Part shown: piece by piece, positions 7,101-24,647 of the stretch
Layout of the letters: the number at the start of each line of letters is the position of its first letter
Position numbering within the stretch: the first letter of the stretch is position 1
Source of the DNA: a virus
Length of the DNA stretch: 27,847 bases
IMG/VR virus record: IMGVR_UViG_3300006736_000071
Location: 1-27,847 of that record
Direction: 5' to 3' (one strand)
Position numbers and translations under genes: made by a program
Notes under the pieces: generated by a model
What the model was told of the DNA's origin: nothing
The model's database searches: none
What the model saw: the letters and a program-made list of their open reading frames with translations, nothing else

Positions 7101-7661
7101 TGAGCTATATTGTTGATTTAGTAAAGACTTGTTGTTTAAGAAGTGTTCTTTAATGGATATATATTTTGTGCTCGTGTTCTCAAAGATAAGCTCCAATAGT
7201 TCAGGGATATCTTCTTCAGAATAAGCAGGCGGTCTGCCACCGATGGAGGCGAACTCTGGTAATTCTTTTAACTCTTCCATGAGTTCTGCAACAAATACAG
7301 CCGCCTCTACCGCAGAATTTATATTTGCAAGCTGGATGGCGTTATTTGAGGCCGACATGATTTTTGTTACTAGGGGGTCTGTAGATTGTATAACCACAAA
7401 CCTCAAATATTTTTGGAAGTCCTGATTGCTGAACCATGTATCAATGATGCCGTTATCCAATTGCTCTTTCAAAAGCAGATCTAAATTAACAATAAGGAGA
7501 CTATCGGACGGCGACTTTTGCACTCGAACTGTTTCTCGGGCATGGTCAATGTGTGGGTTGGTTTCTCGGATTGGTGTGCCTGCTGTTTCCAAAGTTACTG
7601 TCTTAATATATACGTCTGGAATCAGAGAGCCAATTAGTTGTTCTTGATTTACTGCCGCCAT
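4110..7661 (-). CDS. Large phage structural-type protein with Arg-rich C-terminus, 1183 aa
   Basis: Complete 1183-residue frame with ATG at 7661-7659. The A of this ATG is the last base of the TAA stop of the 368-residue gene (TAATG), and GAGGAA at 7675-7670 sits 8 bases upstream, so both coupling and direct initiation are supported. It begins MAAVNQEQLIGSLIPDVYIK. The middle of the protein is mixed alpha/beta with long charged stretches. The last 82 residues (about 1102-1183) are strikingly basic, with roughly 16 Arg and 5 Lys against 3 acidic residues, including LLRRGRVLYRDRLSRRLNRI. No catalytic motif, signal peptide or membrane segment is visible. It is most likely a virion protein because of its size and its place among tail genes. 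Whether the basic tail contacts nucleic acid or an acidic partner is unknown. Confidence 0.85.
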   Translation of the reverse strand: MAAVNQEQLIGSLIPDVYIKTVTLETAGTPIRETNPHIDHARETVRVQKSPSDSLLIVNLDLLLKEQLDNGIIDTWFSNQDFQKYLRFVVIQSTDPLVTKIMSASNNAIQLANINSAVEAAVFVAELMEELKELPEFASIGGRPPAYSEEDIPELLELIFENTSTKYISIKEHFLNNKSLLNQQYSSTSSTGERIYDITFRLKFEVPTKTPRHLSYFAVSSIDIDQLIEDYNLDASGAYLFELMNGKVATDTVIRNGSLVSKSFVFKDANGNIWSGPVHQAEGGWLTGTVDSEVKEPVTKHEVENNKIQDFRNFDELEKLQLDFSIVQNKLFNVNLPFKRLTNDNMDVPRTESYFSEVALARDSRGAARLAFAIDYGKMIKDHTQYGALYSKANQDELFKNVKVRNFQIKRRRMTREFTTLNRLGSPTQLRDIFDKDEPFEVISYTGESRPGEMQKSVSTKGAVKEIVIELDSEFDEVRHFTAIDKTMPLVTDGFYQYGVEIVVEDNTQKFINNKIRDLSVAKYWLDYYYNTATLPNHFDPVSNRFTEEFIEKMYSKYGWKKNQERPVRSPWIQPLITYLSVLSFFRKSSVDIKLAAALWKYLDPKSGNPRGIAMVQKLIENLMQRLASATGANLQSQRSKGIRADSDGNFVRPSSILTPGKPQVKTFTIEYFFPQLFDSNVPKGLGYDFLSPGALERESNEDGLRVITGAEYEKRTELESLKYFTSTTANINMTDGAAVYTKNDSVDNTRLTFLTPSNVSLGTQGNISLLDNAFDAQASLRIQTSIANINLARKSPFLPLLPPSPKKNTQAALQLNKDELQVKSQLTNIMANFNCTLITPVSSPYHNIRQLLEEDYDPYTDVDDILGREWAEVDVIVSGEPGEADEQETNLNPIPLFANLAAPLFLDGVGTSNIKSQHPITNQAGSREARSQAGFKFSMDFYELGSDSRSAIRTFIKSENMTALVSPTAQPPGASPNIVTPKIMTVMAGLPNQIKSLFLAKATTGVTRYDWTGARSSLLQTPAGKAAFIFNYKTLRKTEAMIGYKIDSNGHPLLKHPIWVPLTYSVFRRAGDKNLLCRTVKYENKAFGVEEAKGTRLPVYNKYFIISNPGTASGLLRRGRVLYRDRLSRRLNRILRQHRFLSSEYLSTAVISSKRIIPKRASRQRIIRNTDLTKNLKSGRIV

Positions 7662-8767
7662 TAATCACATTCCTCAAAATCATCTAAGTCTTGTTGTGCT
7701 GAATCATATAATCCGCTAGCCACACCTATCATGGTCCTGCTCGGAGAATCGTCCGGGCATTTGAATTCTTTGGCTAGTCTCAGACCCCGACTCTTATCCT
7801 TTGGTAAAGCCCCGCAAATATCATATTTATCAATCTCCCTGTCAACATTCACTTCGAAAAAGTATTCAACATAACTAGGATCGACCTGGGGAAACATTTC
7901 ATCAACACTCTGCGCGGAACCCTCTGGAGCATTGGTTAGATACACCGCACCAAGGTCCGATTGTTGGCGTGCAAAAAAGAGAGGGATTAGTTCTTCTTTT
8001 TCCCCCTTTCCGTGGCCCGGTTTCATGCTCCCTGATGCTGAAATAGTTTTAATTTCATATACTTCAATATCGAAATTTTCTTGGAGGTAATCTGTATTCG
8101 ATTCTTCGATTTCTAAAAGTATATTATTTTCAAACACTTTTAGGGCAGACCCATCTTCGAACTCCAATTCGGTGCTTCCAAGCTCTATCGGTTGATAATC
8201 ATTTGCTGCCGGGTCATCCATGGGGCGGCCCGGAGGTCCAAAAACATCGTGCTCGCCCTCAGCGAAAGCCCGTATATTATATAAGACTTGGCAGTCAAGC
8301 TGCGGTATTTTAATATTTGGCGAAGAACCCGTTGTATAATCAACAGAGGATGAAAGTTGACCCTGTAAAAAATATGTTTGCCATGCGGGTAATTTATCTG
8401 TATGTAAGCTGGAGTTGCCGAGCGGTAATGTCATTACATGATGCTTCGATGCCATGGGCTGCAACATATCATCGCCTAGTTTCGCCTTTTTTTGTCGCAC
8501 CAATTCATTTATTTTTTTTATTTCTGTTTCTACTCCGTGATAACAATTTTGCACGCGAGGTCGCGGAGTTTCGTCCTGAATTCTATCCTCGACATCACTT
8601 TGTCTTTCCGATAGGACAGAGCCGGTAACCCACTTTGTATCGTATATAATATCATCATCAAAGAAGGCATAATACTTCGGAATAAATTTGCCCTTAGATA
8701 ATAGATGCTTGCCGTATTGGGTTATCTTCAAATCAATAACATCTTCTTTTGAATCAAAAAATTTCAT
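7661..8767 (-). CDS. Phage structural-type protein with shared N-terminal module, 368 aa
   Basis: Complete 368-residue frame with ATG at 8767-8765, overlapping the TAA of the giant gene by one base (TAATG). A consensus AGGAGG lies at 8783-8778, inside the end of the giant gene, and strongly supports this start. The first ~45 residues (MKFFDSKEDVIDLKITQYGK, LLSKG, YYAFFDDDIIYD) match the N-terminus of the 307-residue protein at 475-1398. Residues ~70-130 include a helical charged stretch (EIKKINELVRQKKAKLGDDM). Two strongly acidic patches follow, and the protein ends in DLDDFEECD. It has no signal peptide or membrane segment. I recognise the N-terminal style as common in large marine-type phage genomes but know no assigned function. 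A tail or baseplate protein is the best guess. Confidence 0.85.
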   Translation of the reverse strand: MKFFDSKEDVIDLKITQYGKHLLSKGKFIPKYYAFFDDDIIYDTKWVTGSVLSERQSDVEDRIQDETPRPRVQNCYHGVETEIKKINELVRQKKAKLGDDMLQPMASKHHVMTLPLGNSSLHTDKLPAWQTYFLQGQLSSSVDYTTGSSPNIKIPQLDCQVLYNIRAFAEGEHDVFGPPGRPMDDPAANDYQPIELGSTELEFEDGSALKVFENNILLEIEESNTDYLQENFDIEVYEIKTISASGSMKPGHGKGEKEELIPLFFARQQSDLGAVYLTNAPEGSAQSVDEMFPQVDPSYVEYFFEVNVDREIDKYDICGALPKDKSRGLRLAKEFKCPDDSPSRTMIGVASGLYDSAQQDLDDFEECD

Positions 8768-11700
8768 TATGGTTCATCCTCCTGATCAGGCAGCGGTGGC
8801 GGGATTGGAACATTGCCGGGTGAAAGGGTTTTCCATTCTGGGTTAGTTTCCCCATAAAGCCCTGTTTGTTTGCTGCCCTTGCCAAGCCAAGGTGGAGGTG
8901 CGCCTAAGTTAAGATTCGTTAATTTAACCGGATTAATCAAGCCTGGCCTCCACGCAGGCAAAGTACCTACAAATTCCATGGCTTGAGGACTAGCAGGAAC
9001 AACCGGAACGGGTGGCGCTGCTGGCTGTTCCGCCTCCACCGCTTGCGCCGCCATATGACCAGCGGCCAAAGACCTATAGGCTTGCTCACCAATTATTGCA
9101 TCGGGAACGGACCGAGGAGGCAACATTGGAAAGGAGTCATTTCCTAATCCGACTTTCACATCTATCTTTGCAAGTTCGACCAAACTAAAGAAGTCATAAG
9201 GCCAATTATAGCTGTAATCAGGAATTGTTTTATGGCCACCCTGCGAAAAATTGAAACTAAACTGGTGGTCATCGCTAGAATCAGCAGTAAGCTTGAAATA
9301 ATCTTTCCTGGCCTTTTTCTTAACTTTAAAAACCATCCAGCGCGTGTGCTTTGGTATTGGGTTCCCCCTAAAGAATTCGTTTTCGCCAGTTTCATGCATC
9401 AATACTGACGTCCCTTTCTCTGCGGTAACCGATATGTCAGGCATAACATTTTGCCAGATATTCGATAAGTCTTGTTGAGATAGTTTGTGATGGAACTCAA
9501 AAATATACATTGCATATGGCTCGATACCAGAATCAGTAAGAAAGTCCATATGAGGGGGGAAGATATATCTTTGCATGCGATGTGCCATCTTATTTATTGA
9601 GAGCCCTGGGCCATCTTCACCGGATAGCGCAGCTGAAAATATAGCACGAGATTGGCGAGGTGTATTGCCAAGAGAAAAAAACTTTCGTCGGCCCTTAACA
9701 TCAACAAACGGAATTGCTACGATTGCCTCTGAAATCCACTTCGACTCTGCCAACTCTCCAACCCTCCTTTGCTCGGCTCGGAAGTTGCATGCTTTTAGCA
9801 AAGACCCAACTTGCCCAAGAGACGGATCCGGACCTCGGAGAAGTTGAGAGGGAAAACTTTCTCGAAGGCCAAACCAAATACCGGAATCACCTGTTGGTAC
9901 TGAGCCGTATCCGTTCCAAATACCTATAGGTCGTCGCAAGGGCATGGGGACCACGGCATCCGGGTCGTCTACTTGAGCATGTGTTGTCCACCAATCGCCG
10001 TAGCCATCCAAGGACATGTCAGAATCGGATTCTCCTGGGCCAAGCCCGCCGCCCATTCCATTGGCGAAGTTCAAAGTGGGACATTCCCATTTAGTATGAA
10101 TTACCCACGATTTCGACGCTAGTTGTTCGTCTGCGCGGATTGGGCGTCTGGTTGTGGGGTCATACTGAATTGTTGGAGTTCTAGTTGTTCCAAAAAGATT
10201 TATAGAAGAACTCACACGCATTGCGCTTTTGTTTGCTGCCATATTCCCCATAGTTAGGACTTTCTCCAGCTCGGAAGTGAGCGGCACATTTTCGTTTTTA
10301 TCATAAAAATATGCTGTGCTTTTCGCAACATTAGCTAAAATCTCGTCGAGGCCAAACGCCATGCTCTGGCCTTCCGCCATTTCAACCGCCTCGTGGGGTT
10401 TAAAGGACAGCCGCGCAACAGCAGTTCCATAATAATATGGAGGTGTCGAAGGGGCGTACGCTGGTGCGCCAGCGTTCCATATGCCGCCCATGCCGACGGA
10501 ATAAGCGTGGTCGTGAGGATAAACTTCATAGCGAGGTCCGAAGCCCCATCCGTATGGTTGAAGCCCGTATATGGGTAAGCTTCCATACATCTTGTCGATT
10601 TGGAGTCCTTGATAGCGGAAATGCGCGTTCATATGAAAATCTGGTGTCTTTCTTAAAACTACATCCATGTAATAAGTCGTTCCAGAGGCGAAAGCTTGAA
10701 AATCCGTCTCTCTCGATGACCGAAGTGTGGATAAGGTCTTGCTTTTCAAAAAGAAGTTTGGAACTTCAGCAGCCCAGTTGTTTGCAGCCAAACTATAATG
10801 CGGCTTGCTTTGACCCGACCACGTAGCATAAAAAGAAGATGAACCATAATACGGAGCTGTGAGATACATCCTTCCCTCGGAATCCAACCCCAGTAAGTCG
10901 GTGTCCAGATTATCCGGCGACGGTATCGGCAGATATCGGTCAGGATTAATTAAAGCTTCAAATGGCATTCGCATGTCAGGCGTATCGATAATAGCGTATA
11001 TCGAGCCTGTGGCAGATAGAACATCGCCATGCGGGGTGGGGGACGCATCCCAGTAATTGGTAACTGGTACAATTTCTGCACTACTCGTGTGAACCGGATA
11101 ATCCACCGCAATACCAGACTTAATAGAATTATACATAATACCGGGCGCATAAAAGGGTTGCAAGAGAGATTGCAGTCTTTCCGCGAAATATTTATCACGA
11201 GTGATTCCCTGCCCCGGTGCTTTGCCATAATGGGCTGAAGTTGAACCACTTATAAATGGCGCGTATGATGAAGAGAACAGAGAGGCCAACTGCACCGAGC
11301 GTTGCACGGGATAAAAACCATTATATGGCAAAAGTTTCTTAACTGCCGAACACTTCAAGCTAATACGCCCAGGCGATGCTATATCTTCATGGTCTTCCTG
11401 AATAAAATTGAAGTGATTCATAAAGTCGCTATGGCAATAGTCTTTCCAGAACTGTTCATTATAATATGCGGTATTTTCCCAAGCGCTAAAATCCGTTCGA
11501 CCGAAGTCATCGGGTGCCGATGCGCCTTCTAGCGATAAAAACTTGAAGTTGTTTGTTTTGAAGCCGTTCTCAATATAAAAGTCCATGTGCTCCGATATTC
11601 TAAACTCGGGAATGGTTGTATATTCTTTCGCTATACTTCGGATATCATCGGCGTAAGCTTCATATGAATCAAACCATGGATTTCGACCTGACCAATAATG

Positions 11701-14700
11701 TGTTTTCCAGTTAGAAGGTTGTGGGCCGCGATATGGGAATTTTGTAGCATTATTACCCATGCCGTTAACCGTTAGGGGATATAGTTCCGCATGCCACCCT
11801 TCATCCCATCCATCCCCCTCGGAATACTCGTAGGAACTGAAATGCACCTGTCCCGCCACCGAAAAATGATTGAAGCATAATGAGGCAGTTCCGTGGGACT
11901 TAAAATAAGTATCCGACAAAAAGTGAGCACCATCGGCAGCGCCACGACCACCAGCAAATATTGTAGGTTGGTTGCTTGCCGAATTGCAGTCCCCGTCGGC
12001 GGCCATGTTCCAGAGGGACGCAGTTCCATATGCGATGGTTTTATTACCCAATACCCCAACCACGTCTTGTTCGAGGATCAGATAAGGATCTTCATTATAG
12101 GCAGTTATTTTTATGGCGTGGTCATTAATGTGTTTCACCAATGATGTTATTAGCCAAGAATCGATAAATTGTGTTACCGGATGTGGAGATCCATCTGCAT
12201 AGGAATTGGTAACTGGTACAATTGTGGCGGGGCCAGTCGGGACAAAGTGTGGGCCGTTCGAACCAGGGTCGACCTCGAAATACACCACTGTATTATCGGT
12301 ATCTGTCAATTTTATGGTTTCGGGTGGATTCCAGAAACCGTCGTTCGCACCATATTCAGAACCACAGTCGTCGCGCAGGTCCATTGGATCCGCCCATCCG
12401 CTAAACTTAAGTCTAGCCGTGGCTTTGACCGCTGCGACACCACCAAGAAGGTCAAGGTGGTCATCCGTCACACTACCAAATATAGAACCAATCGTATCAC
12501 GCTGTAGTTCGCCGAAAGTGCCGCCGTATTCATCATAATATGGTATAGACGTGCCTTTCTGCTCGGTATCGTCGTGAGGCCCAAGAGTTTCAACACCATC
12601 AGCACCCCAAGAGGCGCTGCCTGGGAATCCAAAATATTGGTCATCAAGACCATAAAGCCAATTGCGATGACCAGACCCAACATCCAAAGGCCACATGCTC
12701 AACGTGCCTGACCCCAAAATCCACATTGGCTGTTTGGCAGGATTAGCAGCACCGGCAACATTTTCCGGGTTAGCATTATTAAATATCTGGAAACCCATCG
12801 AGTTATACGCGCCATCACCCCTATTTCTATCCCACAAATTATCTTTCCAGAAAGCTCTGTAATTGCCATTGGAGGTTCCCCAAATAGTATTGTAGCTTTC
12901 AGCATATTGTGTGCGGCCCCGAGATTTTGACAAAAAAGTATTAACCTCTTTCGGATAAATTGTTTCGCTATAAGATAAAGACCTGAAAGCCTTAATTGGA
13001 TTTGCGAAGCCAGACTCTTCTCCTAGTAAATAATTGTCCTTAAGAGTATCATAAAGTTGCCTGGGTTGCTCTTGATTGGTGATCAAGTTCATCAAGGGTG
13101 GATTGGCGAAAACCGTGAGGTTATTGCCATACGAGTGTCGAATGGCCAAGTCCTGCGGCATACCATTCGCTAAAGAATCGATTCGATGAACCAGGGGAGT
13201 GTGCTTTATTGTTACTGGCGACTCAATATGATTTGAATGAGTTGAGGCTTTGAGTTCTGTAATTTCTTGTTTTGTGCCACCATAGAAAAGCGTTCTTGTT
13301 GTTGGCGCATCTGAAACAGATATAATGTTATGTTTTCTATGATTCCTCGCAACTGGATGTTCGCCAGTTCTGATTTGTTTCCAACTTGGATAGCCGTATG
13401 GTCCGTTGCGGTGGAGCATGAGGGCGTTAAAAGTTGCGCCAACTCCGAGGGCATCATTGATAGAGGGTACCCAACCCGGCACCCTAAGACTGTCAATCAT
13501 ATCCATGTTGAGATAATTGTTGGTGTCTGGAGAACCAGCGGCATCAGCGAAAAAACTAGGTTGTCCTAAAAAGTTCGAAGATGCAGTAAGAGGTTCATAA
13601 ACCTGAGTATTAATACCTGCAAAATCAGTATATATGGGTTGAGCAGGGGAGAGTAGCTGGTCATTGCCAAATATCCGACTAGAGGCGTAATAACTAGCAT
13701 AAGAACTCGCCGTCACAAACGATGCCGTTGTCAACACATCACACCCAACCTCTTTCTGAGCCGACGCTGTAATCCAAGCATAACCAAATTCATTTGCTGG
13801 AATTGGATGTTGGACAAACCAGTTGTCTCGTGTTTCGAAGCAATCAGTTGCATAGTAATTGGCGGGGAGGTAGATGGTAGTGCTTGTTGCAGCCTTGTAA
13901 CTACCGCCGCCGTCGACAAGATCATAACCGTTCCCAATTGGCGCTGAATCAGTTATAACATCAATGCTATCGCCCAACTTCCACCAAGAAATAAGAGAAT
14001 TTGATCTCTTATCACCCGTAACAAATTTTATTCTCGTTAAATCACCTGGACCGGCTGAATCGTAGCCCGGTAAACGGTAAAGATTGGCGACCTCAGTCGG
14101 GTTCAGTGCTCTGTCCCAAAGAGAAACATCCTGTATATGGCCGACGGGACTAAAATTAGCTTCCTCGGTACCAATCCAGAATTCGTCGACAGTCGCATTA
14201 TACCACGTTGGAGCAAGACCATCGGTGCCCGTGTCGACATACCCAGTGAAGAGTATTTGGTTTCCATCTAAATAAAGCCTCGGATCTTCCGTAATACTAA
14301 GTGTTTTATTGTCCCACACAAGGATAATGCTATGCCACTTGTCGACTTCAATAGTGCCGATGGGGGAGTAGCGAGAACGTCCAGGGGTGCTAGATGGCCC
14401 GTGAAAGGTCTGCACGACAATCCTTTCTTGGCTATCTACGTGGACCTGGAGCGACTTCCCATTCACGCTATCGCCAAACATGAAAAGCTTAGCTACGAAC
14501 CCCGTACTTTCGCCTGTCTTTTTATACCATATGCTAACCGTAAAATTAGTAAAAGTTTCATTTACAGTTGTATTTTTGTAATAATCATCATCATCAAAGA
14601 GGAGCGAAGTCGCCCGATAAGCAGTCAACGTCGGAGTCTGCCTAATATCATAATCTGTGTTGCGGTGAATTTTGTGGAAGGAAGCTGTTAGTGCTGTTGA

Positions 14701-17700
14701 TGCCTCACCAACTGATAAAGTGCTATTCGGCAACGCTCCATATTTAGCACAATGAGCTGTCTGCATCGCATCGAGCGGTGTTCGGACAGCGAGATTACGC
14801 CAAGGGAGCGCATTATAAACAGAATATTTATTTGCAGACTCGTCAATGCCAAAGCCGCCATAAGAATCGCCGGAAGTTTCAGGACCGCCTGGAGCAGAGA
14901 AACGCTCTACAATTAGATGTGGGGATGTGTAGGGCCATGCGTCCGACCCCCCGCCCTCTTCGGTAGGCGGTCCCGCTTCGGGGCCAGCAAATGGTGGAAA
15001 GGTACCGGCGAGGACATTGTAGTCATACTCGGCGAGCATATCTTCATACATCTCCCCATAAAGTAAAAGCGCTTTCCCGAACCCTCGCAACTTTGCATAA
15101 TCATATGTATCAGAAATGAGCGGGCTTTCGACGGGTTGTTGGAGTTGGTCAATCGTCAAGTCAGCTTTGGCCCACGCGCCCGATAACTTTGCATAAAAGG
15201 AATCTCCAGAACCCTGGACACTGATAATTTGTCTTGGGCGATCGTAGTTCCCTGCAAATATATGCGCTGCCGAAGCGTCTAGTTCTGTTGATACTCCCGT
15301 CTCGCTAGAGCGGTTATAACCGTATGCATCCGCGTTTGGGATTGTTCCGTGCCACACCACCGAACGAATGTTTCTAATGTTTACAGGGCGCTTAGCTGTC
15401 TCATCTCGGTAGTATAGGGCGGGCGCATTCCATGGATAGGTGATACCACCATCGGGGTCAATGATGGGACCACCAAGAATTTCTCCATCTTCATGAATTC
15501 TAAATCCCTCGGCCCGATTTTTTTCATTGTGACTCGTGCCCAAGAATGAAGATGTCCCGGCGAGATGTCTATATTGGCGGCCCCCGACGTGTGCCTCCGT
15601 GAACGGACCCTGCATTGGGGTTTCGTTTGATTCCCCATAAGAATCATCATGGAGCCCGAAATACGCTGTAGTACCATCCTGCCCATTGGATGGCACTGAT
15701 GTTACTATATCAGAAGATTGCGAAAAGTATTGGAAAGGCGCTATAAGCATACTTTTCAACGCATTGGCGGGGGGGGTATTTTCCAAGTTCGCAAATCTGG
15801 TTTCGCCAGACCGCCTGATCTTTCTTGTTTCTATTGGTCTAACGTTGTCGGTGCAAGAATACCACGGATCTCCCTTAAGATTGTAATCTGCTTCGGCTGC
15901 TTCAAGATCAAATTTGTACCAATACGATATTGTTGATGACTGATTTCTGAGCGCCGCATAAGTCCAATCAATACCCTTATGATTCATTGGAACATTTGTG
16001 CCGCCGTGCAGGAGCCGAGATGTTTTTAAGTCTAGCTTGTACGGTTTTGAAAATCGCCGAAGAGCATAGGTTGATCCTTTGTATTGTGTCCGAGCGTTAT
16101 ATTCATCTCCGTCCTGTGACAAGTTAAACTGCGCTGCGTTTGGGAATCCGCTGTTCGGGTAATCCGTTGGGTCTGTGTATTCTCCCGTGGCTAGAATTTT
16201 ATTTGTTGTAACATCAGAAGTTAAAATTCTACGGAGGGTGTTCCGGTCAGCATCTACTGAATCATCCGTAGAAGGATTAACAAGAGCCTCGGCTCTTTCT
16301 TTCCACCAAAGACAATTTTCGCCGGTATTATAAAAAAGTGGATTTCCACTGGTATCATAAAAAAGTGGGAGGTTATACGGCGTCATGAGGGTACCGGGTA
16401 GTTCCGATGTCACGACACCACTAGTTGTAGTACCTTCAAACTCATCCATTACTGCGTTGTTGCTGCCAACTTGATCAGGAATAGTAAAATTTGGAGAGGT
16501 TCCTGTCGCACTATCGCCCATTCTCCACCAAGAAACTATATCACTTTGGGCTGACCATGAAGATTTTAAATCCCAAGGTGAACCATTATTATAGAGTGTT
16601 GCAACCTCCGGTGCGCTGAGCACTTTATTGAAAATTACTACCTCATCGATAAGCCCCTTAGCAACATCGTTCGTCGCCGTTGAATAGGCTCGTCCGATAG
16701 CCAAATTGTAAGCTGTTGAATGCATCGCAGTATAGCTACCCTGAGTAATATCATGGGCAGAGTGGGCAGCGCCATTGACATACATGCTAATATCGTCTGC
16801 GTCTCCTCCTCCATTGTATGTGACACAAACATGAGTCCATATATTTTCATAATCCTTCATGGCATTCTCGGTGCTTGATTTCCGTGATATGTAATTTGAA
16901 CCATTCAAATCATAAAGGGCTAATTGCATCCTATAGTTATAATCTGTATTGCCTGTACTATTACGAATTTTCCATTGATATTCATATCCCCCTTTGGATA
17001 AAATCGTAAAATGTTCCGGCCAGTCACTATTGATTTTTACCCAAGCAGCAAACGAAAAAGCCGAATCATCAGACGCGTCCCCAAAGCTTAGATTGTCTGC
17101 ATCTGCTATTGTTAGCTGAGATTCATCATCCACGCCATTAAAAGCGATGGCGCTGCTATTAGAAGTTGGAACCCGAGAAGGGATGGGTGCGTGACCGTGC
17201 TTCCAATCATAAGTTAGTTCGCTGATACCCTTAACGAACGCCACGGGATCTTCCGCTTTCATTTCAAGGGTGGGAAACTTCGTCCAATATTTATTTCTCT
17301 CAAGAATATGACTCTCTACCATGGTCTTTACACCATCAGAGAAGTTCGCTGTTGCAGGCACCAACTGCATCAGCATTGTTGTGAGTGAATCATCAATCCA
17401 TTTATAATACTCAACAAACTTATTAAAGTCAGGCGCATTAGTGACCTTCCTGAAGAAAGCTTCGCGCAATTTACCAAGAGCTTTATATTCCTGACGATAC
17501 CGGTTTGCTGGTTCTCCAATGATGTTGTTAAACTCCACCGTCGTTGCAAACATATTAAGCATTTCTTCTGAAATGGTTTGATACATGCTTTTCTCGATGG
17601 CGAAGTAATGGTTGATTGGTTTACTATCGCGTGTAAAATAATTGTCATCAACATCCAAAATACTGATAGTATCGGGGCCACTCATAACTTCCGGCAGATT

Positions 17701-20700
17701 GGTTTTTGCTGCGTATAAGAAATTCAAATCTACAGCTTTGAGTTCATTTGGCAAGAAATAATCGCCGCGACCTGTGTAGTGATATTTGTATTTATCAGGC
17801 ACGTCCCACTTATCATCGGAGCCGGAAGAAGCATCGACAACGGGAAAAGAACTATCCCAACTTGTGCCACCGTACGGCGAGCCCGGCCCAGGTTCCACCT
17901 CGCCATTACTAGATCCTGTTATGTCCGCAAAATCCCAGTTCAAGAGCAAGGTTTCAAACTGCGGTATAAAAATAGAATCAATGTTTGGGTCGCCACTCTG
18001 ATTAAACAAATGCGAGCTTTTATAAACTCTTTCGCGGCCAAAATTTGTGGGGTCTATGGCGTGCGTCTTGATTTCAGAATCACTAAGATAGTCATCCCAA
18101 ACACGAACTGCGCCAATCTTTACGTCGGAATAATCGAGTATACTACCAGAGAAATTTTGTCTGTGTGCTCCTGCGTAAATCCTTTTGTTGGCATTCATAA
18201 AAGCCGCGCCGTTTGCAGCAGTTAGTGTCCCAGACAAAACAAAACTATTTTGGAATTGATCTAAAGAGGGGTTATAACCCTGAAACTCGATGATGTGATT
18301 GCCGCCAATCTGTGTAGCAAGAGAACCACTTACGTGACGCCCCTCCAATGAACCCGATTCAGGATATACCTTCACGGCAAACAGCCAACGCTCATTATCA
18401 TACACATCCGCGAATTCGCTAGAAGTTAGTGTGGGTATGCCTTCATAACTTGATGTAAGCATAAACCTCGCATCTTTAGAATCTTCTTCCGGTCTTAGTG
18501 CATATATTTGAAAGGATGCTTTATCATCCGACGTTATATCCGCGCCTGTCCAATAAAAATCTTCGTTGGCGCGGGTGGTCGATTTCTCATGACAACCAAA
18601 CAATGAACTTGTCAAATACGGATAATCATACCACAGGTTGGATGGGTGAGTTCTTTCAAATTTAAGTGGAAATACAACATCGGTTTCAAACGTCATTGCA
18701 GAGCCCGTCGCTAAAGCTGTGGAGGCATTGGACGGGTTATCTCCAGGTATATAACTTATAGAGTTTGTGGTGCCCTCGCTGGCCGATTGATACATTGTAG
18801 ACTGAACCCGGTCCGGTTCATTAAAATCAATATATTTGCTCTTGATCGAGGTAGAACGATAATTTGCATCGTCCAATCTATAAACTGTATTATCGGCATA
18901 AAGATTAATTCTAATCAGCTCGTCATCAACGCCGAAGCAGCGAATCAGATTTCTAAAAGATTTCTCAGTGCCCTTCGTTTTATAAATGTAAACGAGGTTG
19001 TTGTAGATGTTTTGGTAAATGGTGTTCTTGATATCGTAAAGTTTTTGGTCAAACTCTCGATATTCATCTCGATTGGCGAGTTGTGCCAATTCACTCGCCG
19101 CCACAAAAATTTCTGGGGCATGCATCCCCATCCCTTCAACCATGTGCTTGGCATAAGGAACTGGACTATTAGAGTAGGGGCGAACCTGAGTTTGAGCTTC
19201 AGTTTTTTCATTTGGGTCGTGAACAATTAATTCTTCATATGGATATTGAATATCGCCAATGGTCGGAATCGCTTGGATTTGAAGATGCATCGTATCCAAG
19301 TAACTTGCAATAATTTGAGTAAGCTTTTTAAGAGTGTCACCTCCCATATCCTGATCTTCGGACGTAATCCATTCCGGCATGGTGTGGTAGAGCGCCGAAT
19401 TATTATTAAGATCCCACTCCATACCGGAGGCTGACATTTCTGTCATAAGTGCAGATACATCGGGATGCCCTGAATAAATAATTGGGTCGTTGAACTCAGT
19501 CAAAGAAGCTGACGATTCAATCATCGCGGAAGATGTTGGGCCTGCCACGCGAGACAAACCAGGAACAAACCCGGTCCAGGCTCCATTAGAGATTCTGCCT
19601 GAATAGTCTAAAACAACTGAATCAGCCACGGCGTTGCCGGTGTTACCCTCGTTGAATTTATAATAAACACCTAAGTCTACTGGTTGTGCCGAACCAGAGA
19701 ATTTCGCTGCATCTGTGTTTGTTCCACCACCAATTTGAGTGAACCAGAATCGACTAATCTCTTGGGCAGTTCTTGCAGTTTTCCAGTAACGAAATTCATC
19801 AACTGATCCCGATAGTTTACCATACCCGTCCACCGCATGAGCTTCAATCAGGGCCGCCGCTTCCGCCTGGTTGGTTGCTGGAAGCCTGAATGCGCCAATG
19901 TTTGCAATCATAGAGCCTGTTACTGGTCCCCACGCAGTCGCTTCAGCTTCTTCAAAGGTTGCAACATATTGACCATCTAAAAACTGATTCCACTCAATAT
20001 AATTCGCACCCGCATCGTTCTGAACCTGCTTAACACTAATAGCAACATGATGCCAATTTCCGTCGAGTATTGCTGTGGATATGGTTGAATCTGGCGTAAG
20101 GGCAGACGAAAGGGAACCAGAATGAATCTCCGCTTTGAAGGTGGCACCCTGCATGCCCATAAAAAATCGTCCATAGGCCGCATCAGATGCCTGGTCCCCT
20201 TTGCCATTCCAAAGGTCAAAAATAGCTTCGATGTCGGTAAGCGCTGAACTAGGAGTTCCAGGCTTTTTTATCCAAAACTCGACAGTCGCGCCTTCGTCCA
20301 AGTCGAGAGCAAGGTTTGAAATACGATTAATCCCAGTTGTATTGTCCCAAACATTTGCTTTGCCGTCCCACGGTTCTGGAAACTGGTGTGATAATTTTTT
20401 TCCACTGTCGGGGTCCGCATGTGGTCCACCCTTTATTTGAACATATTCTGGCGCATCTGAGAGCCCGAAGATGGTGGTCACCTTCGAGCCGTCCCGTGCG
20501 CCCCAACCATCCTGCGTGGTACCACTTACGGAAAATTGAGCGTAACCGCAGGTTCTCGGATAGCGGTGATTGAAAATATATAAATCATAAAAATTGGATA
20601 GATTGAACCACTCAATCTTCTCCGACAAAGAGCCATCATAAGGATACGTTTGATAAATCCTAGAAATAGCATCGGAAGCGTATTGCTCGGCAGAACCATA

Positions 20701-20880
20701 TCTTGCAAAGTTGCTCGCCGTGGCAAAATTTATTGGGGGGAGAAACCGCGTCTTTTGCTTTAGGTAGTGGTCAATATAATCAGATGACTCTACCGGAGTA
20801 GCGCTACCCGTAATATCGGATATGCTTTTCTGCGATAAAACTTTATAATTCTTCCCGAAAAGTTCCTTGATATTACCCAT
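8767..20880 (-). CDS. Giant LamG-module phage tail/baseplate protein, 4037 aa
   Basis: A single uninterrupted 4037-residue frame with ATG at 20880-20878, one base after the TAG of the 499-residue gene. Four concanavalin A/LamG-like beta-sandwich modules are visible: about residues 180-385 (ATVEFWIKK ... WHHVAISV ... GSVDEFRYWKTARTAQEI), 725-945 (a divergent copy ending IGAVRVWDDYLSDSEI), 1245-1435 (FSFAAWVKI ... IDEVVIFNKVLSAPEV) and 2090-2270 (FTVSIWYKK ... IQDVSLWDRALNPTEV). Each is followed within ~65 residues by a similar short segment, e.g. SWWRMGDS and SWWKLGDS. Residues ~629-657 hold KTKGTEKSFRNLIRCFGV, resembling the KGT motif of P2 I-like tail proteins. Residues ~1105-1230 form a helical non-LamG block (NFSDGVKTMVESHILERNKY). 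Residues 2325-3940 are Tyr/Trp/Gly-rich and unassigned. The last ~95 residues are Pro/Ala-rich. From its position after gp25 and gp6 it may be a wedge protein of gp7/I type carrying glycan-binding modules. That role is inference; the LamG calls are fairly firm. Confidence 0.85.
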   Translation of the reverse strand: MGNIKELFGKNYKVLSQKSISDITGSATPVESSDYIDHYLKQKTRFLPPINFATASNFARYGSAEQYASDAISRIYQTYPYDGSLSEKIEWFNLSNFYDLYIFNHRYPRTCGYAQFSVSGTTQDGWGARDGSKVTTIFGLSDAPEYVQIKGGPHADPDSGKKLSHQFPEPWDGKANVWDNTTGINRISNLALDLDEGATVEFWIKKPGTPSSALTDIEAIFDLWNGKGDQASDAAYGRFFMGMQGATFKAEIHSGSLSSALTPDSTISTAILDGNWHHVAISVKQVQNDAGANYIEWNQFLDGQYVATFEEAEATAWGPVTGSMIANIGAFRLPATNQAEAAALIEAHAVDGYGKLSGSVDEFRYWKTARTAQEISRFWFTQIGGGTNTDAAKFSGSAQPVDLGVYYKFNEGNTGNAVADSVVLDYSGRISNGAWTGFVPGLSRVAGPTSSAMIESSASLTEFNDPIIYSGHPDVSALMTEMSASGMEWDLNNNSALYHTMPEWITSEDQDMGGDTLKKLTQIIASYLDTMHLQIQAIPTIGDIQYPYEELIVHDPNEKTEAQTQVRPYSNSPVPYAKHMVEGMGMHAPEIFVAASELAQLANRDEYREFDQKLYDIKNTIYQNIYNNLVYIYKTKGTEKSFRNLIRCFGVDDELIRINLYADNTVYRLDDANYRSTSIKSKYIDFNEPDRVQSTMYQSASEGTTNSISYIPGDNPSNASTALATGSAMTFETDVVFPLKFERTHPSNLWYDYPYLTSSLFGCHEKSTTRANEDFYWTGADITSDDKASFQIYALRPEEDSKDARFMLTSSYEGIPTLTSSEFADVYDNERWLFAVKVYPESGSLEGRHVSGSLATQIGGNHIIEFQGYNPSLDQFQNSFVLSGTLTAANGAAFMNANKRIYAGAHRQNFSGSILDYSDVKIGAVRVWDDYLSDSEIKTHAIDPTNFGRERVYKSSHLFNQSGDPNIDSIFIPQFETLLLNWDFADITGSSNGEVEPGPGSPYGGTSWDSSFPVVDASSGSDDKWDVPDKYKYHYTGRGDYFLPNELKAVDLNFLYAAKTNLPEVMSGPDTISILDVDDNYFTRDSKPINHYFAIEKSMYQTISEEMLNMFATTVEFNNIIGEPANRYRQEYKALGKLREAFFRKVTNAPDFNKFVEYYKWIDDSLTTMLMQLVPATANFSDGVKTMVESHILERNKYWTKFPTLEMKAEDPVAFVKGISELTYDWKHGHAPIPSRVPTSNSSAIAFNGVDDESQLTIADADNLSFGDASDDSAFSFAAWVKINSDWPEHFTILSKGGYEYQWKIRNSTGNTDYNYRMQLALYDLNGSNYISRKSSTENAMKDYENIWTHVCVTYNGGGDADDISMYVNGAAHSAHDITQGSYTAMHSTAYNLAIGRAYSTATNDVAKGLIDEVVIFNKVLSAPEVATLYNNGSPWDLKSSWSAQSDIVSWWRMGDSATGTSPNFTIPDQVGSNNAVMDEFEGTTTSGVVTSELPGTLMTPYNLPLFYDTSGNPLFYNTGENCLWWKERAEALVNPSTDDSVDADRNTLRRILTSDVTTNKILATGEYTDPTDYPNSGFPNAAQFNLSQDGDEYNARTQYKGSTYALRRFSKPYKLDLKTSRLLHGGTNVPMNHKGIDWTYAALRNQSSTISYWYKFDLEAAEADYNLKGDPWYSCTDNVRPIETRKIRRSGETRFANLENTPPANALKSMLIAPFQYFSQSSDIVTSVPSNGQDGTTAYFGLHDDSYGESNETPMQGPFTEAHVGGRQYRHLAGTSSFLGTSHNEKNRAEGFRIHEDGEILGGPIIDPDGGITYPWNAPALYYRDETAKRPVNIRNIRSVVWHGTIPNADAYGYNRSSETGVSTELDASAAHIFAGNYDRPRQIISVQGSGDSFYAKLSGAWAKADLTIDQLQQPVESPLISDTYDYAKLRGFGKALLLYGEMYEDMLAEYDYNVLAGTFPPFAGPEAGPPTEEGGGSDAWPYTSPHLIVERFSAPGGPETSGDSYGGFGIDESANKYSVYNALPWRNLAVRTPLDAMQTAHCAKYGALPNSTLSVGEASTALTASFHKIHRNTDYDIRQTPTLTAYRATSLLFDDDDYYKNTTVNETFTNFTVSIWYKKTGESTGFVAKLFMFGDSVNGKSLQVHVDSQERIVVQTFHGPSSTPGRSRYSPIGTIEVDKWHSIILVWDNKTLSITEDPRLYLDGNQILFTGYVDTGTDGLAPTWYNATVDEFWIGTEEANFSPVGHIQDVSLWDRALNPTEVANLYRLPGYDSAGPGDLTRIKFVTGDKRSNSLISWWKLGDSIDVITDSAPIGNGYDLVDGGGSYKAATSTTIYLPANYYATDCFETRDNWFVQHPIPANEFGYAWITASAQKEVGCDVLTTASFVTASSYASYYASSRIFGNDQLLSPAQPIYTDFAGINTQVYEPLTASSNFLGQPSFFADAAGSPDTNNYLNMDMIDSLRVPGWVPSINDALGVGATFNALMLHRNGPYGYPSWKQIRTGEHPVARNHRKHNIISVSDAPTTRTLFYGGTKQEITELKASTHSNHIESPVTIKHTPLVHRIDSLANGMPQDLAIRHSYGNNLTVFANPPLMNLITNQEQPRQLYDTLKDNYLLGEESGFANPIKAFRSLSYSETIYPKEVNTFLSKSRGRTQYAESYNTIWGTSNGNYRAFWKDNLWDRNRGDGAYNSMGFQIFNNANPENVAGAANPAKQPMWILGSGTLSMWPLDVGSGHRNWLYGLDDQYFGFPGSASWGADGVETLGPHDDTEQKGTSIPYYDEYGGTFGELQRDTIGSIFGSVTDDHLDLLGGVAAVKATARLKFSGWADPMDLRDDCGSEYGANDGFWNPPETIKLTDTDNTVVYFEVDPGSNGPHFVPTGPATIVPVTNSYADGSPHPVTQFIDSWLITSLVKHINDHAIKITAYNEDPYLILEQDVVGVLGNKTIAYGTASLWNMAADGDCNSASNQPTIFAGGRGAADGAHFLSDTYFKSHGTASLCFNHFSVAGQVHFSSYEYSEGDGWDEGWHAELYPLTVNGMGNNATKFPYRGPQPSNWKTHYWSGRNPWFDSYEAYADDIRSIAKEYTTIPEFRISEHMDFYIENGFKTNNFKFLSLEGASAPDDFGRTDFSAWENTAYYNEQFWKDYCHSDFMNHFNFIQEDHEDIASPGRISLKCSAVKKLLPYNGFYPVQRSVQLASLFSSSYAPFISGSTSAHYGKAPGQGITRDKYFAERLQSLLQPFYAPGIMYNSIKSGIAVDYPVHTSSAEIVPVTNYWDASPTPHGDVLSATGSIYAIIDTPDMRMPFEALINPDRYLPIPSPDNLDTDLLGLDSEGRMYLTAPYYGSSSFYATWSGQSKPHYSLAANNWAAEVPNFFLKSKTLSTLRSSRETDFQAFASGTTYYMDVVLRKTPDFHMNAHFRYQGLQIDKMYGSLPIYGLQPYGWGFGPRYEVYPHDHAYSVGMGGIWNAGAPAYAPSTPPYYYGTAVARLSFKPHEAVEMAEGQSMAFGLDEILANVAKSTAYFYDKNENVPLTSELEKVLTMGNMAANKSAMRVSSSINLFGTTRTPTIQYDPTTRRPIRADEQLASKSWVIHTKWECPTLNFANGMGGGLGPGESDSDMSLDGYGDWWTTHAQVDDPDAVVPMPLRRPIGIWNGYGSVPTGDSGIWFGLRESFPSQLLRGPDPSLGQVGSLLKACNFRAEQRRVGELAESKWISEAIVAIPFVDVKGRRKFFSLGNTPRQSRAIFSAALSGEDGPGLSINKMAHRMQRYIFPPHMDFLTDSGIEPYAMYIFEFHHKLSQQDLSNIWQNVMPDISVTAEKGTSVLMHETGENEFFRGNPIPKHTRWMVFKVKKKARKDYFKLTADSSDDHQFSFNFSQGGHKTIPDYSYNWPYDFFSLVELAKIDVKVGLGNDSFPMLPPRSVPDAIIGEQAYRSLAAGHMAAQAVEAEQPAAPPVPVVPASPQAMEFVGTLPAWRPGLINPVKLTNLNLGAPPPWLGKGSKQTGLYGETNPEWKTLSPGNVPIPPPLPDQEDEP
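8778..8783 (-). promoter_or_regulatory. Consensus ribosome binding site AGGAGG
   Basis: AGGAGG reads on the minus strand 10 bases before the ATG of the 368-residue gene and lies within the last codons of the giant gene. It is the strongest Shine-Dalgarno match among the junctions examined. It fixes the start at 8767 and suggests this protein is made independently of full readthrough of the 12-kb upstream gene. Confidence 0.75.
11055..11074. repeat. Direct repeat, copy 1 (20 bases, inside giant gene)
   Basis: A 20-base string identical to 12204-12223 and in the same codon phase, encoding IVPVTN in the giant protein (around residue 3270). The flanking protein sequence shares only Asp/Ala/Ser/Pro character, so this is a short conserved turn rather than a clear domain duplication. 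Confidence 0.6.
12204..12223. repeat. Direct repeat, copy 2 (20 bases, inside giant gene)
   Basis: Second copy of the 20-base string at 11055-11074, 1149 bases (383 codons) away and in the same frame, again encoding IVPVTN (around residue 2887). The ends AATTG/CAATT are inverted relative to each other, but the core is not palindromic. Confidence 0.6.
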
Positions 20881-20881
20881 A

Positions 20882-22381
20882 CTATTCTTCTACTCTAAAT
20901 TTAAAAACCTCGGGCTGTTCCACATATTTCCCATTCAAATAATAAGAAAAGTTCATACCATAAGCAAAATCAGGTTCAAAAAGACTCATATTCAAATCAA
21001 AATAACTTCCACTTTGATCATATGAAAGTCTCGTCTGATTGTCGCTTCCCGTACCATATGGAATCACCTCAAAGTTATCAGAAACTCTAAATATTTTATA
21101 ATACGCTGAATCCACTATAACACTATCTAATGTCTCTGTTGCCTTAGTATAAATAGTAGGCGACCAATTTTGTTTTCTGATGAAAAGTCTAAAACGGGCT
21201 GTCTCTTTTATAGAGTATGTCGAACGAAAGCCGACCATCGAAGTGACATGATTTGGATTCGGATTTTCGCCCATGGCGCTAAAAGTTTTTACAGAAATTG
21301 CAGAACCAGTGTGAAGGGAAACAGAACCAGTAGTCCAAACATCATAAAGGTATGATACAGGTGTGGCTGAGGTATAGGTAATTGACGCGGTATAAATTCC
21401 GGCATCTGCTGTGGGATATCCGATGGCGGAGACAACAGGGGTTTCTGCGTCGCCGATAGCAGAATACAATTTGACATCCAACGTATTACTAGCATGAAAA
21501 CCTTCGAAGGTTTTCAGCTGTCCCCGCACCGAATTATATAAATATAAAGTATTAGCCTGGTCCGCCAGCAGCAAGTGGTTTGAGTTCGTAGCAGCATAAA
21601 AATTAGCCCTGTCGTCTCTTTTCGAGTCGTCCCATCGCGCTTCAATGCGCGGACGCTTGTAAAAGTACTCGCTTGTTCTAGTAAAATATTTCTTTGTATA
21701 GAATGACGCGCTTAGAGTGCCGTCTTCGTATGCTCCCGACATCATCACGCCAACGCCATAATTAGCCTTTGTTGAATCTATCCATTGTTCAACAAGTTCC
21801 GATATGTCAACCTCGATATTTTTGGTGCCGTCATCGCCAACTAAACTTGTATACATTGTTCGAATATTCTTTGTGTTCATGGCTGAATCAGTAGCAAGTA
21901 GCGCGGCGCTCGACGTATGATACGCGCCACCTTGAGCGGCAGCTAGGCCGCCGCCCCACAGGGTACCCGTAGTAGCATTAAGCCAGCTAGCTGATCCTGA
22001 ATCCATATACGTTTCCATATCTAAACCATAACCTTCAGTCCAACTTTCGGAAACGGGCAAGACACTAAGAGTATAATCCGATGGAAGAGTGTTCGGGTGT
22101 TCTGCGTTTGTAAGCTTTAAATAAAAACTGACTGAACCCGAGGCGGGAATGTTGCCAGCTGTTCTGTCGGAACTTATGGAATCGACTGGAAATTTCACCA
22201 ATGCTCGGGATGCTTCAATGGACGGACCATCTATACTACTTGACCTTTGCCCCCAGATTGAAAACACCTCCATTGAATCTGACGCTCCCATATTCGCACC
22301 AGTCGCCAAATCAGATAAGTTTTCTTTATATGCGTTTGAAATTGTAGTGTCGGCATCTGCAATGTATCTTTTAATTGCCAT
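20882..22381 (-). CDS. DNRLRE-like beta-sandwich phage structural protein, 499 aa
   Basis: Complete 499-residue frame with ATG at 22381-22379, overlapping the TAA of the gp6-like gene by one base (TAATG), with AGGGGTGG just upstream. It begins MAIKRYIADADTTISNAYKE, like the opening of DNRLRE-type domains, which usually start with a short strand followed by 'aD..i......'. Further support is EVDISELVEQWIDSTKANYG at residues 190-209, matching the 'vDvT.lV..W..g..nyG' strand-helix of that family, and a Ser/Ala/Gly-rich beta pattern over residues 20-240. Residues ~270-499 look like further beta domains, ending in YYLNGKYVEQPEVFKFRVEE. No signal peptide is present, as expected for an intracellularly assembled virion protein. 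It sits directly between the gp6/J homologue and the giant LamG gene, so it probably decorates or bridges the wedge. The DNRLRE assignment is by eye and moderate. Confidence 0.8.
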   Translation of the reverse strand: MAIKRYIADADTTISNAYKENLSDLATGANMGASDSMEVFSIWGQRSSSIDGPSIEASRALVKFPVDSISSDRTAGNIPASGSVSFYLKLTNAEHPNTLPSDYTLSVLPVSESWTEGYGLDMETYMDSGSASWLNATTGTLWGGGLAAAQGGAYHTSSAALLATDSAMNTKNIRTMYTSLVGDDGTKNIEVDISELVEQWIDSTKANYGVGVMMSGAYEDGTLSASFYTKKYFTRTSEYFYKRPRIEARWDDSKRDDRANFYAATNSNHLLLADQANTLYLYNSVRGQLKTFEGFHASNTLDVKLYSAIGDAETPVVSAIGYPTADAGIYTASITYTSATPVSYLYDVWTTGSVSLHTGSAISVKTFSAMGENPNPNHVTSMVGFRSTYSIKETARFRLFIRKQNWSPTIYTKATETLDSVIVDSAYYKIFRVSDNFEVIPYGTGSDNQTRLSYDQSGSYFDLNMSLFEPDFAYGMNFSYYLNGKYVEQPEVFKFRVEE

Positions 22382-24186
22382 TATTTAACCACCCCTTTGA
22401 TATCAACAACCGGATGTTTGATTTCCCAAATCATATCTTCAGGAATTTTAATTAGCCGACCATCGGCGGAAATATTTCCGTCTACATCAAAAGCTAAGTC
22501 GGAATGCATGCCGCCCGACTTCTGACTAATTTCTACATTTATAACATCAGTAACGCCTATGATATCATTTAAAAGAGAGTAGACATCGCTAATATAAAAT
22601 GGCTCAGCGATATCTGGTCTTTGAACATAATGACGCTTTAACGCCGTATTAGCGCTGTTGAGAATATCATATCTATTCATCTCAGTATCACCAACAACAC
22701 TAAACTCTATTCCGAGATTTAAAACTCGCGCATCAAGAATATCAATAGTGTCATTAATCATTTTACTTTTTGCTAGCCAAACTTTTAAATTTTGTTTTAT
22801 GCTATCGTTTGTTCTTACCAAGGCACCGCCGCGATTTTCCGAAATGACATATAAATTGAGATTCCTCTTGAGTGAATTGTGGTCCCGTAATATATTACAG
22901 CGCTTAACAGAACCGAACTTTGGCGGCAAAGAATAAACAACGGAAATATAATCTTGTTTTGTTACAGCGCGGTTTTGTGTGGCAAAAACGTCTTTTGCAC
23001 GGCGCTTCACTTCTAATGACGTGGGCAAAGGCATATCGCCAATTATTGGCTCTTCGTTTGTGACTTCAACATTTTTGTTAATAAAAGCAATAGTACTCCT
23101 ATTCAGTGAGGAGCGGTTCTCAAAATATAATTTTGCCCTTATCACGTCGCGAATAGTATCAACTCCAGCATTAACATTCTCAGTTGAATTGATTCGGTAA
23201 GTTACAGTTAGTTGAGTGTTTGACGGTGCCACTCCAAATTTATCAGTTTCCATAAGTTTTGCCGGGTCAAACGACTCGTCGGTTATATGTGACTTCCCCC
23301 ATTGATTTAAAACTACCGAAGTGGGCTCAGCAACACTATTAGCAGTCAATTCGGAATCGGACCCATATCCAAACTGAAGAAATGTTCTCTTATCATCTTG
23401 TTCCATAACAAAACGCCTCGGCACGACGAATGGTTTTAATAAATGCTGGACTTCTCCATTCTTGCCCGAGTAATTTGGATTTTTGACCGGCTTGTGAATA
23501 ACGTTCTGCGAAAGGTAATCTACCTCATAATAACTATGACCCTCGGAGTCTGTGACTTCAATAATCTCTGCTATATCAGAAGATTCAATTTCTACCCTTC
23601 GGAACTTTTCAAAGTTTCCAACTGGAATAATAACCCGAGCTAGCATTCCAGATATAAGTTGCCCGTGGCATTTCACAGCGAACCATGTGGGCAGCCCGGT
23701 TGTATCATTGACACGAGCAACAACAATTTCATTATTTTCGTGGCCGACATGAACGTCTTCATTTAAAATATATTGATTTCCATTCGCCGCCGAAAAAGAA
23801 CTGCCCCTTTTTATAATTGGCATATAAGAGTCGTCGGGATTCCCAGTAATTGTAGCCGGTATCATAACATAAAATGTTCCCATGCCGGAAGCGCTTGGGC
23901 TTCCTCTAAACTTATATCCCAACCTGTTGGCATGCCTAATAACATTTTGATATTCAATTGAAGTATCAATAAAAGATTCATTAGCTTGGTAGTCCATATA
24001 AAAAGATAGCATATCGCCGACATATGCGACCGTATCGAGCATCAACGCGCCAAACGAAGCTTCATTAAAATCTTTGAATGTTGTTGGATAATACTTCTTT
24101 GCATATTCTACAAGTTCACTTTTAATCGAAGCAAAATCTCTTGCCGTATATCGCACAGGTACTATTTTTTTATAATTTTTTGGCAT
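22381..24186 (-). CDS. Baseplate wedge protein, T4 gp6 / P2 J-like
   Basis: I place the start at ATG 24186-24184, giving 601 residues, because AGAGGA at 24199-24194 is 7 bases upstream. A TTG at 24204 extends the frame by six codons but would overlap this site. Residues ~12-80 contain the classic gp6/J N-terminal signature: ARDFASIKSELVEYAKKYYP, then DFNEASFGALMLDTVAYVGD, then MLSFYMDYQANESFIDTSIE. The C-terminal half carries the J-like segment with RRAKDVFATQNRAVTKQDYI and a late NVEISQKSGG stretch. In T4, gp6 dimers join neighbouring wedges and form the ring of the baseplate; P2 J plays the same part. The length is close to that of T4 gp6 and longer than P2 J. It lies 41 bases after the gp25-like gene and overlaps the next gene by one base. 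Family assignment is firm. Confidence 0.93.
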   Translation of the reverse strand: MPKNYKKIVPVRYTARDFASIKSELVEYAKKYYPTTFKDFNEASFGALMLDTVAYVGDMLSFYMDYQANESFIDTSIEYQNVIRHANRLGYKFRGSPSASGMGTFYVMIPATITGNPDDSYMPIIKRGSSFSAANGNQYILNEDVHVGHENNEIVVARVNDTTGLPTWFAVKCHGQLISGMLARVIIPVGNFEKFRRVEIESSDIAEIIEVTDSEGHSYYEVDYLSQNVIHKPVKNPNYSGKNGEVQHLLKPFVVPRRFVMEQDDKRTFLQFGYGSDSELTANSVAEPTSVVLNQWGKSHITDESFDPAKLMETDKFGVAPSNTQLTVTYRINSTENVNAGVDTIRDVIRAKLYFENRSSLNRSTIAFINKNVEVTNEEPIIGDMPLPTSLEVKRRAKDVFATQNRAVTKQDYISVVYSLPPKFGSVKRCNILRDHNSLKRNLNLYVISENRGGALVRTNDSIKQNLKVWLAKSKMINDTIDILDARVLNLGIEFSVVGDTEMNRYDILNSANTALKRHYVQRPDIAEPFYISDVYSLLNDIIGVTDVINVEISQKSGGMHSDLAFDVDGNISADGRLIKIPEDMIWEIKHPVVDIKGVVK

Positions 24187-24193
24187 TACGAAT

Positions 24194-24199
24194 TCCTCT
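24194..24199 (-). promoter_or_regulatory. Ribosome binding site deciding the gp6-like start
   Basis: AGAGGA on the minus strand, 7 bases before ATG 24186-24184. It favours that ATG over the TTG at 24204, which lies upstream of it and has no comparable site. Confidence 0.65.
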
Positions 24200-24201
24200 G
24201 T

Positions 24202-24211
24202 CAATAAATAG
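24202..24211. repeat. Copy 2 of 10-base motif CAATAAATAG
   Basis: Identical to 1435-1444. Together they occupy the two longest gaps of the operon. On the plus strand the core is AATAAATA, close to a T4-type late box but pointing against the genes, so a late-promoter reading is not supported. Confidence 0.35.
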
Positions 24212-24227
24212 GATAGAACTATTAAAC

Positions 24228-24647
24228 TTAAACTTTCAATTCCAAAGTTGTTCCCCTACCTATAGGTGTAATTGTTAAAAATATTTTTATCTGTAGTCGG
24301 TTTGGGTCGAGGTTTGGCGATTCGATTCCCGGTAGATATCCGTTGGTGCTGCTCCAAATTCCGTCTGGTCCGTAAAAAACCACATCATTAATCCCTACAA
24401 ACGGCATATATTTTTCTACTTGATTTGTTATCCTTGCGTGGATATTAGAATAAGTGATGACCGAGTGTTGTTCAAACAGATACTTTTTAAGGCCCACCCC
24501 AAACGCAGGATCCATTATTCTTTCGCCGGGGAGCGTCAATATAAGACCTTTCAAATTTTGAAGAATCATCTCAGTATAGGTTTTCGTTAGAGAGTATCCG
24601 TCTGCAACGTCACGCTGAATTGGCAATTTTGGTGATAGTCCCGCCAT
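24228..24647 (-). CDS. Baseplate wedge protein, T4 gp25 / P2 W-like
   Basis: Complete 139-residue frame with ATG at 24647-24645, nine bases after AAGGAG (24662-24657). The signature of the gp25/TssE/W family is clear: LKGLILTLPGERIMDPAFGV at residues 32-51, with the conserved Gly-Glu-Arg at 41-43, then GLKKYLFEQH. The C-terminal part is beta-rich and ends with LTITPIGRGTTLELKV, the usual strand pair of the family. Length is typical. In contractile systems this small protein sits at the core of the wedge, contacts the gp6/J protein, and provides the strand that seeds sheath assembly. Its start directly abuts the stop of the -1 frame of the upstream gene, and the gp6-like gene follows it, the conserved W-J order. 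Assignment is firm. Confidence 0.94.
   Translation of the reverse strand: MAGLSPKLPIQRDVADGYSLTKTYTEMILQNLKGLILTLPGERIMDPAFGVGLKKYLFEQHSVITYSNIHARITNQVEKYMPFVGINDVVFYGPDGIWSSTNGYLPGIESPNLDPNRLQIKIFLTITPIGRGTTLELKV

Follow-up and report, generated by a model that had tools for sequence, protein, structure and literature searches.

What kind of protein is encoded by a gene of about four thousand codons that lies behind the baseplate wedge genes of a phage, and why should it carry laminin G-like (LamG) modules? The window analyzed here is an entire IMG/VR fragment of 27,847 bases, and 12,114 of these (43.5%) belong to this single gene, P0001. The coordinates and the length of 4037 residues given by the original prediction are correct, as is its estimate that the gene fills over 40 percent of the window; the strand is minus. 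The gene and its neighbors are arranged as follows:

8767..20880, minus strand: giant, probable wedge-type gene P0001, 4037 aa, a single open frame with an ATG start (20880) and a stop at 8767
24228..24647, minus strand: gp25/W-type gene P0004 (PF04965, 5.6e-8; phrog_261, 2.4e-15)
22381..24204, minus strand: gp6/J-type baseplate wedge gene P0003 (phrog_219, 9.3e-21)
20882..22381, minus strand: P0002, 499 aa, between the gp6-type and giant genes, possibly CBM96-like according to a match of its Mel-JY01 homologue
7661..8767, minus strand: P0005, 368 aa, a conserved gene next downstream of the giant gene

The giant gene had been described as following W/gp25 and J/gp6 homologues with one gene between, and both the Pfam and PHROG matches and the single 499-aa gene agree with this. 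A P0001-type gene occupies the same locus in 40 related contigs, and therefore the long open frame is not an assembly artefact.

Relatives were collected as 80 viral contigs from a scan with the gp6 protein; the same scan of bacterial genomes returned no relative. A homologue of P0005 was present in all 42 of these contigs that were searched for it (up to 193 kb) and adjoins the giant gene in 40 of 40 fetched contigs. The order gp25-gp6-P0002-giant-P0005 is kept in the 40 contigs fetched through to P0005, two of which share one and the same gp6 sequence and could represent a single virus. In its unsplit form the giant gene ranges from 2938 to 5104 aa among the related contigs. The gp6 tree separates this clade, with full support, from Flavobacterium phage immuto, Microcystis phage Mel-JY01 and LR756508. 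Among seven large relatives and three reference phages, the tail sheath (PF04984) was detected in 10 of 10 genomes (8 above cut-off) and the gp23-type capsid protein (PF07068) likewise in 10 of 10. Judging by the kind of contigs found rather than record by record, the phage family appears to be mostly oceanic.

Several observations concern the remaining genes of the locus. The shortest P0002 homologue, that of immuto, has 369 aa and the longest, that of L036, has 912 aa; the Mel-JY01 homologue matches CBM96 (PF24517, 5.5e-5) slightly under the cut-off, and that of L039 contains an inserted LamG domain (Pfam 6e-16; also found by our home-made LamG profile). P0005 (7661-8767) and P0008 (475-1398) have a common N-terminal pattern (hhalign 16.9%) and may be old paralogues. 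Upstream, P0009 (24668-27847, 1059 aa) is cut by the window end and has no Pfam match; its homologues are very long where BLAST finds them, those of L003 (2294 aa) and L021 (3026 aa) being examples. In record G006, a terminase match (48827-50269) contains one in-frame TGA.

Within P0001, three blocks outside the LamG modules form a conserved core within the first ~1235 residues:

20491..20880, minus strand: coreN block, aa 1-130, N-terminal part of the core (33-55% identity to relatives, 74% to the nearest)
18811..19470, minus strand: KGT block, aa 471-690, helical, a candidate gpI/gp7-type domain from alignment and profile
18967..18975, minus strand: KGT motif, aa 636-638 (K and G invariant in 34 sequences)
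17176..17640, minus strand: hel block, aa 1081-1235, the most conserved part of P0001

The KGT motif, which lies within a near-invariant stretch of the alignment, is thus located where it had been placed, near residue 636; the helical block noted near 1105-1230 extends over aa 1081-1235 and shows 46-68% identity to relatives and 82% to the nearest. The clade architecture is collinear, in the order coreN-LamG-KGT-hel followed by the second half. Outside the clade, the KGT profile matches immuto (2e-16), Mel-JY01 (7e-16) and LR756508 (5e-12). The hhalign values against the core proteins of these three are 96-98% for the KGT block and 70-95% for hel, and coreN matches them weakly with the order preserved.

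Laminin_G_3 (PF13385) occurs above the cut-off three times in P0001, at aa 186-376, 1263-1427 and 2098-2265, and we delimited the modules as follows:

19585..20373, minus strand: LamG module 1, aa 170-432, between coreN and KGT (PF13385; LamG HMM E 4e-57)
16453..17154, minus strand: LamG module 2, aa 1243-1476 (Pfam 2.2e-23)
13891..14631, minus strand: LamG module 3, aa 2084-2330 (Pfam 4.7e-15)
18001..18723, minus strand: possible diverged LamG-like module, aa ~720-960, between KGT and hel (hhalign)

Three of the four carbohydrate-binding-type modules originally proposed are therefore found by Pfam, and the fourth is a possible one. Against the LamG profile, aa ~720-960 gave 45% (E 2e-4) in hhalign as query and 6.7% when reversed, with controls at 0.1-0.4%; from these sequence comparisons it is at best a diverged LamG-like domain. 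When 41 clade genes were scanned with the home-made LamG profile, a LamG domain was found between coreN and KGT in all 41, between KGT and hel in one, and after hel in 14, where it is facultative.

Behind hel follow LamG modules 2 and 3 and blocks E-J, and the second half of the protein is delimited as follows:

8770..16443, minus strand: second half, aa 1480-4037, collinear blocks conserved in relatives, with LamG module 3 inside

No similarity of the second-half blocks to one another was found, and aa 2961-4037 contain no Pfam domain. In eight contigs the gene appears as two adjacent ORFs, the second half being wholly or partly a separate ORF. The splits fall at three kinds of boundary (about 1228-1267, 1963 and 2175 aa), and the gp6 tree requires three or more changes to account for them, so that the second half is separable. 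In one separate second-half ORF (L042 16885-21807), a LamG domain is accompanied by FG-GAP repeats (4.3e-10).

The core also occurs without the long second half. The core proteins of immuto (1265 aa) and Mel-JY01 (1336 aa), annotated merely as hypothetical, both have the arrangement coreN-KGT-hel, and the LR756508 protein is likewise about core-sized. In immuto, KGT spans aa 393-582 and hel 665-745, with no LamG before or between them. LamG modules are thus facultative at these sites. In Mel-like proteins an inserted LamG-like segment (77.6%) separates KGT from hel, and an immuto-like contig, L264, has a Fib_succ_major domain there (2.8e-42, aa 653-834); different adhesion-type domains have therefore entered the same stretch. 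By eye from the alignment, L266 3883-7074 has an apparent Fib_succ_major-like insertion inside the KGT block, at a site other than that of L264. The immuto-like core protein of L261 (4870-9018) ends in a C-terminal HINT-type domain (PF07591, 1.4e-10).

How far does the core resemble the third wedge subunit of known baseplates? A likeness of the KGT region to P2 I had been suggested, and the register agrees: in hhalign the KGT motif aligns with the KGT of P2 I at 15.8% at best (E 0.0016), above all 14 null comparisons; for the P2 I pattern of a KGT helix with a beta hairpin after it, the best matches keep this register but score 15.8% at most. The motif is likewise in register with the KG of T4 gp7 (DFYSTKGIEAS) at a score not above the null, one of 14 null comparisons being higher. 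Whole-genome scans with Tail_P2_I (PF09684) gave sub-threshold rows only; the best of those at this gene, in LR756508, lands on the KGT block with 12.7 bits against a cut-off of 20.6, and P0001 is accordingly not assigned to this narrow family. No usable wedge match was obtained for the KGT block or the whole proteins against Pfam, PHROG and PDB sequences. Matches to IcmE/DotG from direct searches were rejected as repeat noise.

Structure prediction of fragments, also proposed at the outset, yielded one structural match that bears on the helix-turn-helix core bundle and trifurcation fold of such subunits. The AF2 model of the immuto core, of low confidence (pLDDT 54), has as its best VIA match 8kea_c, the wedge protein gp32 of cyanophage A-1(L), with Z 6.6, a value within the middling range of the tool, and the next row at 4.3. 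The VIA ranges, counted without gaps, would place K299 of the model near K108 of the gp32 KG motif. The alignment behind this model comprised 73 rows, each a contiguous piece of sequence from the window or from a fetched locus; the window-clade rows for coreN were omitted because MAFFT misplaced them. With Foldseek, the same model found nothing below E 2 in the PDB, rank 1 being 9gtp_A, a Streptomyces CIS baseplate chain (E 2.3), and in BFVD significant E-values for uncharacterised phage proteins only. For the AF2 model of the KGT block of the window, likewise of low confidence (pLDDT 62), the VIA search found no wedge protein and BFVD gave nothing meaningful.

A gene matching only tape-measure or tail-fibre families, or a gp7/I homologue elsewhere in the genome, would speak against a wedge protein here. 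P0001 matched no tape-measure or fibre family in Pfam or PHROG. With the KGT profile, every one of 14 genomes gave a single copy of the block and no second one; a search with the P2 I profile, run without a positive control, found no separate P2-I-type gene.

All lines combined, although none is significant alone, make a gp7/gpI/TssG-type wedge identity likely. The original reading of P0001 as a gp7/I-type wedge protein that has absorbed modules fits the position, the single copy, the KGT block and the insertions; as the similarities are weak, we regard P0001 as a probable wedge protein of this type, enlarged by adhesion-type modules. The first ~1235 residues would correspond to T4 gp7, P2 gpI and TssG as third wedge subunit in the baseplate of a contractile-tailed phage whose capsid protein is T4-type, and within each of the six wedges the core (coreN, KGT and hel) would link a pair of gp6-type subunits. 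Modules of the LamG type would sit in loops of the core, always between coreN and KGT and possibly between KGT and hel, with extra copies behind the core and a second half of ~2800 residues usually fused to it. Such a wedge subunit with loop modules and a fused second half, making contact with the host, is in our judgment the best explanation and a likely one.

P0001 might instead be a receptor-binding or peripheral protein attached to the baseplate (gp10/gp11/gp12-like, or of a two-layer baseplate), with a convergent KGT resemblance: its LamG modules and very long variable second half are as expected of an adhesin, and the gp7/I scores are weak; unidentified ConA-domain proteins in pelagimyophage tail operons have also been proposed as components of fibres or baseplates (PMC7029224). 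However, the most conserved blocks are those of the non-LamG core, which is also found in immuto without any LamG; the locus follows gp25-gp6 closely; the KGT block, present once per genome, keeps the register of P2 I; and A-1(L) gp32 is the best structural match of the core. We consider this reading quite improbable. Much closer to an even chance, if slightly short of it, is a variant of the wedge explanation, with which it can hold together: the wedge subunit would consist of the first ~1235 aa, and the second half would be another structural protein (fibre-like or peripheral), merely fused to it in most members, with the two halves working separately. The eight split contigs with their three boundaries and at least three tree changes agree with it, as do the core-sized proteins of immuto, Mel-JY01 and LR756508. 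On the other hand, most clade members have the fused form (32 of the 40 clade rows of the gp6 tree), and every split copy remains adjacent.

LamG domains can bind glycans or proteins. In the wedge explanation, the modules would project from the wedge and attach to host-surface glycans or proteins, supplementing the contacts of separate fibres and perhaps contributing to baseplate triggering; thus the baseplate itself, and not only the attached fibres, may touch the host. What the sequences show is the gene, the gene order, the conservation, the LamG domains with their occurrence among relatives, and the splits; the gp7/gpI identity, the outward position of the modules and their binding are what we infer here. 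The LamG domains might alternatively serve assembly or stability through contacts between wedges or with neighboring proteins. The first LamG, which keeps a single site in all 41 genes, is as expected of a structural role, but additional copies vary in number and place, Fib_succ_major, another adhesion-type domain, can occupy the site between KGT and hel, and in phage Vp4 the wedge protein bearing carbohydrate-binding modules (CBMs) binds cells and a CBM-less homologue does not (PMC11406892). A purely structural role is accordingly unlikely in our view.

The suggestion that receptor recognition is built into the baseplate rather than into a separate fibre is not supported, as relatives carry other large LamG ORFs elsewhere and downstream genes of immuto have tail fibre and tail spike annotations. 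With such genes present, the baseplate modules would add to other adhesins. A bolder proposal, which we rate as doubtful, is that in this clade six giant wedge arms with lectin-type modules are a principal receptor-binding organ and do the job of the T4 short tail fibres; modules would be swapped at fixed loop sites, so that host range would evolve by insertion into an essential structural protein. In the low-confidence model of the immuto core, the insertion site between KGT and hel may correspond to the C-terminal loop (129-151) of A-1(L) gp32, which touches the long tail fibre (PMC10966104).

The probable core wedge protein would be a platform for adhesion-type domains (LamG and Fib_succ_major) at recurrent insertion sites. 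This pattern is seen across 40 contigs of uncultured phages and in two more groups of relatives, with repeated fission or fusion of the very long second half. If the reading is true, part of the host recognition in these phages resides in an essential assembly protein. The annotation of tail genes in metagenomes should then seek wedge subunits within very large LamG genes; none of the Pfam and PHROG models tried identified these as wedge proteins.

Compared with known systems, the classical wedge subunits T4 gp7, P2 gpI, TssG and XM1 gp17 adjoin gp25-gp6 (gpW-gpJ) as P0001 does, and the KG[TI] helix is in register for gp7 and gpI. In contrast to these likenesses, they have no significant sequence match to P0001 and are about 4-23 times shorter; to our knowledge, none of them has a LamG domain. 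T4 gp7 is, like P0001, far longer than its minimal orthologue (1032 aa versus 242 in XM1; PMC10457771). Cyanophage A-1(L) gp32, which forms (gp31)2-gp32 wedges (PMC10966104; PDB 8kea), is like the core in being the best VIA match of the immuto core, in having a KG motif at the corresponding place and in its weak P2 I profile match. Unlike P0001, it has 191 aa and no inserted modules, and it helps to hold a separate long tail fibre. The immuto and Mel-JY01 core proteins are closer, with homologous KGT and hel blocks, probably a homologous coreN, and the same locus; however, they have no long second half, immuto is without LamG in the core and Mel-JY01 has one LamG-like insert.

Module-bearing wedge components have precedents in Vp4 Gp119 and AlgoCIS Alg11. 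Gp119 is baseplate wedge 3 with CBM folds and binds bacterial cells, and its homologue, Deep-Blue Gp177, is without CBMs (PMC11406892). The likeness is one of architecture: there a wedge protein, and here a probable one, has carbohydrate-binding-type modules that a homologue lacks. Gp119 differs in its 831 aa and its other CBM folds, in belonging to a Bacillus cereus phage compared with A511, and in that no fused second half is reported. AlgoCIS likewise carries CBMs in a baseplate wedge component, but these are in Alg11, in the spike cage, and not in the gp7-like part, which belongs to Alg12 and has been called a re-engineering hotspot (PMC8894135).
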